This document shows positions 1 to 2,024 of a stretch of 5,494 bases of DNA, one piece after another (position 1 is the stretch's first letter; each line of letters opens with the position of its first letter). This DNA comes from Aquificaceae bacterium. GTDB lineage: Bacteria > Aquificota > Aquificia > Aquificales > Aquificaceae. The notes beneath the pieces were generated by a model. The model saw only the letters and a program-made list of their open reading frames with translations. It was not told where the DNA came from and ran no database searches. The stretch covers positions 1 through 5,494 of the forward strand of contig WFOY01000161.1 in NCBI GenBank assembly GCA_015487835.1, read 5' to 3'. The translations under genes were made by a program, and so were the position numbers.

Positions 1-1301
1 CCTATACCGAACAGCCAGGGTACATACTTGGCCACGCCGTAGAAGGCTATCTTCTTCCTGAAGAGCAGAGGTATGAGATAGTAGGTCACGCTCATAAAGG
101 CAAGTGCTGTTCCCCCAACGACAGCACCCTTGAAGTGCCCAGGAACGGAGAGGGTGTTGTGGGCTATGATGTTAGTCTGCTCCATTCCGTTCACGACACC
201 TGTGATACCACCTATGAAGCCGAAGATTATCATCGAGAGCATGAGTCCCGAGAAGGCGGGATTACCCCAGGGTGCACGCTTCAGCCACTCGAAGAGTCCC
301 TTGGTGTAACCCCTCTTCCTCTGGGCTACCTCGATGGCCGAGGGAACGGCGAAGGCGTGGATCATAGAGGCGAAGACCGCAAGGTACATCACGTAGCTCG
401 TGTTCCAGACCTTCCATACGGGGCTGACCGCTGGGTCAACGAGGAGGTGGTGGGCTGAGGCGACGTTAATGGCAACTACGTAAAGTATGAAGGCGAACCT
501 GCTTATCTTCTCGTTTATCGACTGACCCCCGACCGTCAGGAAGGCAAGAAGATACCAAACAGCTACGTGGGCTGAGACGTTTATCTGCTGGGAGGGGTGT
601 CCCAAACCCCACCACACGAGCTTGTAAACCGCAGGGTCTATGTCCTTTATTATCCCGAGTGACCAGAGGAAGGTGGGTACGTATATGATCGCTCCTGAGA
701 CTATGGTTATCACAGCTATGATCGCTGCGGCCATAAGCCCGTAGACGAACAGAGGGAGGGACTGTCCTGGGTTCTCCCTCCTCCAGATCATCAGGTTGGC
801 GAAGAAGGTAGAGACTATGAGCAGAGCTCCCACCGCAAAGAGTATCATCCCAAGATAAAAGCCCGGATGAGCTTTGAGTGGCGCGTAGGAAGTCATCAGG
901 ACGTCCGCGTTGCCCGTGAGGATCATGTAGTTGACGAGCAGAAAGCCAACGATCGCCAGTCCTGTTCCTAGCCAACCTACAAAGGGTGACGACATCCTGG
1001 TGTTCAGAAAGACGGTGGATGCGAATACCAGAGCTGCAAGCTCGAAGAAGATTATCCAGAACACCAGAGCGTCGAGTCCGTGGAGGGTAAGGACCCTGTA
1101 GTACCAGTCAACGGGAAGGAGGTGGATCATCTGCCAGCGTGTAAGAACGAGAAGCAGGGCAGCTATCACCGCTATCAGGAAGGAGACGACGGCCATTACG
1201 GCGTTCACTTTGGCTATCTTCTCAGCTCTCGTATCCACCTTAAAGCCGGTGACGTCACATGTCCTGAAGAACTGCTCGCCACCATGAGTTGCCACAGCCA
1301 T
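1..1301 (-). CDS. Heme-copper oxidoreductase subunit I, B/ba3-like, probable nitric oxide reductase (3' partial)
   Basis: Catalytic subunit of a membrane heme-copper enzyme; 433 codons are present and the C-terminal roughly 100 or more residues lie beyond the window. The start is the ATG at 1301, with AAGGAGGTG (1316-1308) in front, 13 bp after the subunit II stop. Similarity to the Thermus ba3 oxidase is clear from memory: LTLHG in helix II (His74, low-spin heme), GHP (His235, CuB), AHH (His284/285, CuB), HNT...VPGHF (His389, high-spin heme). Two key positions deviate. GHP is followed by SQQ, so the residue four after His235, where oxygen reductases of the A and B families carry the cross-linked Tyr, is Gln239. 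HFH is HFK, so the second low-spin heme ligand is Lys391. The first suggests nitric oxide reduction rather than oxygen reduction (inference); the effect of the second is unknown. A divergent oxidase or an inactive paralog is possible. Family assignment is firm, substrate is not. Confidence 0.9.
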   Translation of the reverse strand, partial: MAVATHGGEQFFRTCDVTGFKVDTRAEKIAKVNAVMAVVSFLIAVIAALLLVLTRWQMIHLLPVDWYYRVLTLHGLDALVFWIIFFELAALVFASTVFLNTRMSSPFVGWLGTGLAIVGFLLVNYMILTGNADVLMTSYAPLKAHPGFYLGMILFAVGALLIVSTFFANLMIWRRENPGQSLPLFVYGLMAAAIIAVITIVSGAIIYVPTFLWSLGIIKDIDPAVYKLVWWGLGHPSQQINVSAHVAVWYLLAFLTVGGQSINEKISRFAFILYVVAINVASAHHLLVDPAVSPVWKVWNTSYVMYLAVFASMIHAFAVPSAIEVAQRKRGYTKGLFEWLKRAPWGNPAFSGLMLSMIIFGFIGGITGVVNGMEQTNIIAHNTLSVPGHFKGAVVGGTALAFMSVTYYLIPLLFRKKIAFYGVAKYVPWLFGI

Positions 1302-1307
1302 GACTCA

Positions 1308-1316
1308 CACCTCCTT
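1308..1316 (-). promoter_or_regulatory. Ribosome binding site of subunit I
   Basis: AAGGAGGTG on the minus strand overlaps the TAA stop of the subunit II gene (1317-1315) and lies 6 bases before the ATG at 1301. It fixes the start of subunit I and indicates translation coupled to subunit II. Confidence 0.8.
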
Positions 1317-1845
1317 ACTCCTCAACGATGATCTTGCCGATCATCATGTGGTGGCCTATCCCGCAGAACTCGTTGCAGACTATGTAGAACTCGCCTGCGG
1401 AGGTGGGTTTGAAGGTGAGGACGTAGTCGTACTTGGGATAGACCATGAAGTTCATGTTCACAGGTTGGAGAGAAAAGCCGTGAAGCACGTCTAGGGATGA
1501 TATGTGGAACCTGTACTCCTCTCCCTTCTTAAGCACGAGGACAGGCTCCCACCTGAACTGACGTGCCAGGAGAAATACGTCGCTGCCTGGAGGGGGCTTG
1601 ACCACTGGTATACCGTTCTCCTCACCCACCTTGTACTTCTCTATGAAAGCCTGCGTGAGCTGGTAGAACTCCTCGGGAGTTGTCTTGTAGGTAACGAAGG
1701 AGGGGTTCTGTTTGGCATAGACGTGCCAGATTATCATCCAGAAGAACAGAAACACGGACACCACGAAGGCAAGCCCCATCCAGATCTTCTCATCCCTGGC
1801 TACCTTCTGGTAAAACCAGCCTTCCTTCGGAGGCAGCAGTGCCAT
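1315..1845 (-). CDS. Heme-copper oxidoreductase subunit II with CuA site
   Basis: Electron-entry subunit of the complex, 176 residues. One membrane helix (about 22-43) anchors an extracytoplasmic cupredoxin domain (about 88-176). The CuA ligands are complete: His122 in DVLHGF, then C157-N-E159-F-C161, His165 and Met168. The enzyme should therefore take electrons from cytochrome c or another small periplasmic carrier rather than directly from quinol. DEKIW near the N-terminus (Glu19) lines up with Glu15 of Thermus ba3 subunit II, the mouth of its proton channel. The length is close to the short ba3-type subunit II (about 168) rather than the long A-type. The ATG at 1845 is preferred, with GGGAGG 8-9 bases upstream; a GTG at 1854 that overlaps the upstream stop would add three residues. 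It sits between the small subunit and subunit I, the order of the Thermus ba3 operon. It could equally serve an oxygen or a nitric oxide reductase. Confidence 0.93.
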   Translation of the reverse strand: MALLPPKEGWFYQKVARDEKIWMGLAFVVSVFLFFWMIIWHVYAKQNPSFVTYKTTPEEFYQLTQAFIEKYKVGEENGIPVVKPPPGSDVFLLARQFRWEPVLVLKKGEEYRFHISSLDVLHGFSLQPVNMNFMVYPKYDYVLTFKPTSAGEFYIVCNEFCGIGHHMMIGKIIVEE

Positions 1846-1850
1846 GACAG

Positions 1851-2024
1851 TCACCTCCCTAACAGAGCCTGCTTTATCTCCTCAGGTATGGGCGGGGTCC
1901 AGGCTATCTCTATCAGACCCCAGATGAGGTAAGAGACCGCGTAGATAGCCACGCCCAAAAAGAGGAGGAGTATAAAGTCATCGAAGACCAGCTGAAGGAA
2001 TGGGACCTTTTTCTCCTCACTCAT
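1851..2024 (-). CDS. Small one-helix protein, probable accessory subunit (IIa-like) of the heme-copper enzyme
   Basis: A 57-residue protein with a charged N-terminus (MSEEKK), one hydrophobic helix at about 15-40, and a short tail with TPPIPEE. The start is the ATG at 2024, with a strong GGAGGTGA (2038-2031) 6 bases upstream. The TGA stop lies 5 bp before the subunit II ATG and overlaps the ribosome binding site of that gene. Size, single helix and first position in the operon match the subunit IIa gene of ba3-type oxidases; in Thermus that subunit is only 33-34 residues. Assignment rests on position and topology, since such short helices carry no diagnostic residues. It likely packs against subunit I and stabilises the complex (inference). 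Confidence 0.8.
   Translation of the reverse strand: MSEEKKVPFLQLVFDDFILLLFLGVAIYAVSYLIWGLIEIAWTPPIPEEIKQALLGR

Follow-up and report, generated by a model that had tools for sequence, protein, structure and literature searches.

The window, the whole stretch of 5,494 nucleotides analyzed here, is a contig (C161) of an Aquificota genome of 1.33 Mb and 81.4% completeness, and its nearest named relatives are Aquificaceae MAGs at 98% identity (L002). It carries the genes for two subunits of a heme-copper enzyme that we assign below, as a prediction, to the eNOR family of nitric oxide reductases, together with a divergent gene for a cytochrome b/iron-sulfur fusion and genes for a hemerythrin-domain protein and a membrane protein (Table 1). 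Peptides related to the 57-aa peptide occur at the same place in many relatives, and in size and place it appears to resemble subunit IIa of B-type oxidases. The hemerythrin gene adjoins eNOR in Aquificota relatives, and one is also present in the eNOR cluster of Defluviimonas. Next to hemerythrin in Aquificota eNOR clusters lies a multi-helix protein of ~400 aa; neither the window copy nor a 401-aa relative (L081:2473-3678, minus strand) has a Pfam or NCBIfam match, and an NnrS-like label given to the window copy by eye was dropped, as no Pfam or NCBIfam family stood behind it. We also considered an in-frame TGA in subunit I of six Aquificota genomes as a case of recoding, and rejected it because the alignment had run beyond the start of subunit I into the stop codon of subunit II, which stands just before the true subunit I start in L109, L111, L113, and L115.

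Table 1. Features of the window and, where a locus is named before the coordinates, of related loci.
Feature	Positions	Strand	Remarks
Predicted eNOR subunit I, heme-copper catalytic subunit	3..1301	-	433 aa (564 in the 98% identical P0001); 3' end lost at contig end
Predicted eNOR subunit II with CuA motif C-N-E-F-C-G-I-G-H-H-M-M at residue 157	1315..1845	-	PF00116 E 9.1e-7; ATG at 1845, listed start GTG 1854
Single-helix peptide, 57 aa, upstream of subunit II	1851..2024	-	translation
Cytochrome b (two-heme) / two [4Fe-4S] / MvhD-type [2Fe-2S] fusion, 647 aa	2209..4152	+	divergent from eNOR genes
Hemerythrin-domain protein, 144 aa	4196..4630	+	PF01814 E 1.5e-24
Multi-helix membrane protein, start of ~400 aa	4627..5493	+	stopped by window end; no family match
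His235 (CuB ligand position), Gln238, Gln239	585..599	-	His235 codon CAC 597-599; Gln238 588-590; Gln239 codon CAG 585-587
Lys391	129..131	-	codon AAG, motif PGHFKG; aligns with T. thermophilus ba3 His386
His315	357..359	-	Thr in 19/19 B-family rows
HCO-like neighbor of eNOR	L147:4357-5811	+	
HCO-like neighbor of eNOR	L148:7986-9449	-	
HCO-like neighbor of eNOR	L065:10916-12280	-	
HCO-like neighbor of eNOR	L067:11637-12956	+	
HCO-like neighbor of eNOR	L076:2321-3694	+	
HCO-like neighbor of eNOR	L012:8662-9945	+	

Subunit I is a B-family-like heme-copper protein (PF00115, E 1.3e-53) whose best relatives in the PDB are subunit I of the Thermus thermophilus ba3 oxidase (E 2.9e-47) and 7deg (E 3.6e-44). 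The predicted model of its full-length relative P0001 (pLDDT 84.3) likewise has ba3 structures as its best matches, and the NCBIfam names returned for subunit I (CtaD/CoxA) lie below cut-off and are not specific. A sequence-only reading of this DNA had proposed that a glutamine takes the place of the tyrosine four residues after the CuB ligand His235, that the CuB and high-spin heme histidines remain, and that the site is remodeled rather than decayed, and our results bear out each of these points. GHPSQQ is encoded at 585-602 of the minus strand, giving His235-Pro-Ser-Gln-Gln239. Both Gln238 and Gln239 are present in all 120 nearest homologues (the best 120 of 7999 proteins passing the search) and in 119/119 new proteins among the matches listed in a second search from a Thermus relative. 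The two residues are likewise found in 100/100 aligned Gln-type loci, a set limited to frames of at least 480 aa (leaving out shorter ones such as L007, L102, L115, and L122) and partly duplicate, in that some of the L097-L114 contigs recur as L002-L012; position 239 is Tyr in all 19 B-family oxidases compared. The CuB ligand positions His284 and His285 and the high-spin heme ligand position His389 are each invariant in the best 120 of 7999 homologues. Gln-type proteins furthermore have an invariant set of their own, comprising Asn241, which is Trp in the B-family, His315, and Glu87 (100/100 loci for each). Because Gln238, Gln239, Asn241, His315, and Glu87 are invariant across homologues and loci, the alignments indicate that glutamine at the tyrosine position is a fixed and specific remodeling, neither chance nor a sequencing slip.

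This residue also directs the family assignment. A family named eNOR has reportedly been purified from Rhodothermus marinus. Published descriptions are cited here by PMC number from excerpts of each paper. In one of them, Gln in place of the cross-linked Tyr is what defines subunit I of eNOR (PMC8756737); according to Table A4 of the same source, sNOR and CuANOR/bNOR have Asn there, gNOR has Asp, and cNOR/qNOR have Glu. bNOR and eNOR are described as biochemically characterized and related to the B-family (PMC11388526), and a ba3-a1 subtype, for which NO reductase activity with reduced cytochrome c is reported, has been renamed eNOR (PMC8879329); in 2019 the group was called degenerate B-family oxidases of unknown function (PMC6431628). 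The window enzyme has Gln at the defining position, not the Asn of bNOR/CuANOR and sNOR, the Asp of gNOR, or the Tyr found four residues after the CuB histidine in B-family oxygen reductases, and a CuA (cupredoxin) subunit II lies beside subunit I. In our trees, which were built without bNOR, nNOR, and purified-eNOR sequences, 35 Gln rows fall on one side of a branch (99/99), 21 Gln rows separate from Tyr-type B-family, A-family, C-family/cNOR, gNOR-labeled, and Asn-type rows (100/100), and 23 Gln rows separate from four B-family rows (100/100). The gNOR-labeled rows (Hydrogenothermaceae) and the Asn-type L180 fall outside the Gln clade on long branches, with their place unsure and their labels assigned by us. 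Thermus scotoductus, Caldilinea, Anaerolineales, Chloroflexi, and Hydrogenobacter thermophilus are among the 23-row clade, and Thermus, Anaerolineales, and Chloroflexi are eNOR carriers named in the excerpt of PMC8756737, a match by taxon name and not by accession. We file the window enzyme as eNOR because it has the defining glutamine and because the Gln-type proteins form a single clade; it is thus very probably a member of this known family and a predicted NO reductase. The earlier suggestion of a candidate CuA nitric oxide reductase is thereby supported by the glutamine, the CuA subunit, and the separate clade, and the grouping inside oxygen-reducing ba3 enzymes that would have spoken against it was looked for in the trees and not seen.

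As an eNOR, the enzyme would act on NO, forming nitrous oxide, and would not turn oxygen into water. A periplasmic c-type cytochrome would pass electrons to CuA of subunit II, and from there they would reach first a low-spin heme, whose ligands are likely His74 and Lys391, and then the heme/CuB site, which would join two NO molecules. The lost tyrosine would be the one that supplies an electron and a proton for O2 splitting, and a site that lacks it and has Gln238, Gln239, Asn241, and His315 may favor NO chemistry. NO would come from a cytochrome cd1 nitrite reductase, the gene for which is ~3-4 kb away in relatives, and the fusion probably carries electrons among quinone, an Fe-S donor in the cytoplasm, and the eNOR pathway.

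Alternatively, the protein may still be a B-family oxygen reductase that works with glutamine, or a degenerate oxidase serving a different role. This would agree with its fold, with the retention of all CuB and high-spin ligand positions, and with the partial retention of K-channel-like residues (Tyr250 and Ser312, each 100/100 in the loci), and the excerpt of PMC6431628 kept the function open. An eNOR would likewise have one proton channel, analogous to the K-channel. Other K-channel positions are changed, the Tyr244 equivalent being Val/Ile, the Thr312 equivalent His315, and the Ser261 equivalent mostly Asn263. A substitute tyrosine was sought at the C-family position, which we place on helix VII, six residues ahead of the HH pair; of the 100 Gln-type loci, 99 have Ile there and one has Leu. 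Tyr274 and Tyr303 are invariant in these loci and are Phe in 18/19 and 13/19 B-family rows, respectively, so it is possible that some tyrosine lies close to CuB. The separate clade with its own invariant residues, the nirS neighborhood of eNOR, and the reports of eNOR activity cited in the excerpts of PMC8879329 and PMC11388526 speak against an oxygen reductase or degenerate oxidase and make either improbable. Assignment to another Tyr-less family (bNOR/CuANOR, sNOR, gNOR, or nNOR) could draw on the cupredoxin or B-family relationship that these families share (excerpts of PMC11388526 and PMC8756737), but it is highly improbable given that the residue is Gln, not Asn or Asp, and that the gNOR-labeled and Asn-type L180 rows stand, however unsurely placed, outside the Gln clade.

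The proposed entry of electrons through subunit II is consistent with its sequence. The CuA motif is present in 80 of 84 loci, the misses being two cut contigs and two Thermus sequences with Asp for Glu. A C-terminal CxxCH follows the motif in 35 loci whose record titles all name Bacteroidota (L013-L016, L018-L030, L032-L040, L043, L046-L048, L051, L053, L054, L068, and L080); this would be the mark of a fused cytochrome c, and it fits with cytochrome c as the donor.

A further feature, which the sequence-only reading left unmentioned, concerns the second histidine position of the HFH motif on helix X, which we take to be a low-spin heme ligand: here it is lysine (Lys391). VPGHFH of T. thermophilus ba3 aligns with VPGHFK, such that His389 corresponds to His384 and Lys391 to His386; we take His386 and His72 (here His74) to bind the low-spin heme b in the ba3 enzyme. 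Position 391 is Lys in 71, His in 28, and unreadable in 1 of the 100 loci, and His in 19/19 B-family rows. It is Lys in 95 and His in 25 of the best 120 of 7999 homologues, and Lys in 23 and His in 96 of the 119 second-search proteins among the matches listed, of which 116 have His at the His74 position. Hydrogenobacter thermophilus P0017 has Lys391 as well. Rows with Lys form one Aquificota/Bacteroidota clade (29/29 rows, 100/100) and, separately, Thermus, so that well-supported branches force two label changes on the tree; in the best tree of 23 Gln rows, the protein of the HR23 bacterium accounts for one more change, making three, of which two are forced. The history may alternatively be one of an early Lys that was lost several times. 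Six histidines are given as the heme-copper superfamily signature in the excerpt of PMC3475470, and here we find five (74, 235, 284, 285, and 389) plus Lys391.

We consider it likely, from these alignments, that Lys391 and His74 form a natural His/Lys low-spin heme. The broader proposal, in which we place about even confidence, is that this is a natural heme-copper enzyme lineage with a His/Lys low-spin heme, that the change from His to Lys took place in the Aquificota/Bacteroidota eNOR clade and separately in Thermus (perhaps also in HR23), that it tunes the electron-entry heme, and that the enzyme is wired to a dedicated cytochrome b/ferredoxin/MvhD protein. It is possible, though we find it rather doubtful, that Lys391 is not a heme ligand. 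The low-spin heme would then be five-coordinate or bound by a different residue, or the lysine would just lie near it; the helix position of Lys391 indeed rests on alignment and on assumed ligand assignments. Against this, only His or Lys was read at position 391 in the loci, homologues, and second-search proteins, and among the other alignment columns none with His, Met, or Cys proved specific to both Lys clades. No mention of Lys391 or of the cytochrome b partner turned up in a very small literature check of excerpts that did not include the main eNOR paper.

The fusion encoded by the divergent neighbor of eNOR matches cytochrome b6 (2.4e-34), the ferredoxin part of HdrA (3.6e-17), and MvhD (5e-15) in a PDB profile search, and four histidines (83, 97, 185, and 199) and twelve cysteines are invariant in its 48/48 aligned sequences. 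In its model (pLDDT 87.7), the cytochrome b part contains six helices and is accompanied by Fe-S domains, a further helix at 493-512, and a C-terminal beta domain; a Foldseek search with the model returned cytochrome b of bc complexes. Of 80 loci, 75 have the gene next to eNOR; they fall into four arrangements (52, 19, 3, and 1), and the L074 match among them is weak, partial, and located where a contig ends. Three of the five loci without an adjacent fusion have the gene elsewhere in the genome (one as a frame with two stops); the genome of L057 is without it, and that of L004 is likely G018, which has the fusion on another contig. Among 136 Aquificota genomes the fusion (E < 1e-190) is present in exactly the 21 that have eNOR, and among 296 Bacteroidota genomes (E up to 1e-40) in exactly the eight that have an eNOR of at least 55% identity, which amounts to exactly 29 genomes with close eNOR relatives among 432 of the two phyla. 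Five of the 296 Bacteroidota genomes have Gln-type enzymes of 44-46% identity and are without the fusion; three of these five enzymes were read and have Gln239 and His391. Nor was the fusion found, within what was searched, in Thermus and Thermomicrobium, which have distant Gln-type enzymes. Because genomes with distant Gln-type enzymes lack it, the fusion is not needed by all eNORs. An open reading frame described in the excerpt of PMC8756737, RME88945.1, combines a c-type domain, cytochrome b6, a DMSOR-beta-like domain, and FlpD, an architecture like that of the window fusion.

The conserved ligands and strict co-occurrence suggest that the fusion is likely an electron-transfer partner of eNOR. 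Less probably, yet with some plausibility, the gene may be a hitch-hiker by linkage, or may serve assembly or NO defense instead of electron flow. Its adjacency in most loci means that its co-occurrence with eNOR is not independent evidence, and in the window it shares an operon with hemerythrin and the membrane protein, which are NO-stress-like in look. Linkage by itself would sit poorly, however, with the four relative arrangements and with the three loci for which the gene is found elsewhere in the genome, and the invariance of every redox ligand position argues for electron transfer.

L081, a 97% identical relative, encodes NirJ2-like, Usp, an Rrf2 regulator, the membrane protein, hemerythrin, and the cytochrome b fusion, and divergently from these the small peptide, subunit II, subunit I, the copper chaperone SCO (PF02630, 2.6e-7), NirS (PF02239, 5.9e-124), NirN/F-like, and a NirJ-like radical SAM protein. 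A clustering that put SCO proteins and subunit I together was left out of the counts. Among the 136 Aquificota genomes, 21 carry eNOR, two of which (G008 and G027) have it in fragmentary form. A full-length cd1 domain (E < 1e-110) is found in 17/21 eNOR genomes vs 33/115 other Aquificota, a comparison for which Fisher tests ignore genome kinship and serve as a guide only. nirS lies on the same contig as eNOR, 2.9-4.2 kb away, in 14 of the 21 (the G014 copy is partial) and on another contig in four; G013, G027, and G000 have none in full, G000 having a fragment. The heme-copper proteins found in the window's own genome are two A-family oxidases and eNOR only, and another NOR may be missing because the assembly is incomplete. 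Genes resembling nirF and nirN are also present in this genome, as is a nirS fragment on C239, and no NosZ was found above cut-off at 81.4% completeness. In the Aquificota genomes G024, G028, G036, G038, G045, and G046, nosZ shares a contig with eNOR at a distance of ~8-9 kb, and nirS, eNOR, and nosZ therefore form one denitrification region there.

Other heme-copper proteins accompany eNOR in some genomes. Three genus relatives with eNOR have a further protein of the heme-copper oxidase (HCO) superfamily, of 472-475 aa; because the copies in G009 and G015 look like cNOR NorB, eNOR is not always the sole NOR. Proteins of 472-484 aa with HLWVEATWE, which we take to be the cNOR NorB motif, are present at L177, L178, L179, and L181 (G009, G012, G022, and G015, respectively), and G012 and G022 are without eNOR. 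L180 (G015:C226) is a heme-copper protein with GHTLVN, that is, Asn at the tyrosine position, beside a CuA-like match, and is possibly an sNOR-, bNOR-, or nNOR-type enzyme. In several phyla an HCO-like protein of ~430-490 aa, 25-30% identical to eNOR and with a GH..Q motif, adjoins eNOR (Table 1). The CuB HH pair is absent from the Bacteroidota copies in L147 and L148, which have LAAPLL in its place, and the neighbor is possibly a heme protein without CuB derived from an eNOR-like gene.

Our findings bear on how such genomes are interpreted. Genes of the eNOR type are widely annotated as cytochrome c oxidases, judging by the names among the matches listed, and a predicted capacity to convert NO to N2O is therefore overlooked in these genomes. 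Heme ligation in heme-copper enzymes is usually taken as fixed; a recurrent change from His to Lys, if true, would be a natural experiment on the tuning of the electron-entry heme across the superfamily, and the co-occurring fusion offers a specific candidate for an electron route dedicated to an NO reductase.

Compared with known systems, the window enzyme is closest to eNOR, a B-family-derived enzyme (Hemp and Gennis 2008; excerpt of PMC8756737) with the same Gln, a CuA subunit II, and the B-family fold, and it differs in having Lys391 instead of His, the cytochrome b/ferredoxin/MvhD partner gene, and, in Aquificota, the adjacency of nirS. The bNOR/CuANOR of Bacillus azotoformans is likewise derived from the B-family, has a CuA subunit, and has lost the tyrosine (excerpt of PMC3475470), but it has Asn where the window enzyme has Gln, a distinction drawn from published description. 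The ba3 oxidase of T. thermophilus (1ehk) and the 7deg oxidase share the fold and the CuB and high-spin heme histidines, and have Tyr, Thr, and His in place of Gln239, His315, and Lys391. Cytochrome b6, the C-terminal ferredoxin of HdrA, and MvhD are matched by the fusion with their heme His and Fe-S Cys kept, whereas the fusion combines them, together with a C-terminal beta domain, in a single chain, and none of the best 60 PDB rows matches its full length.
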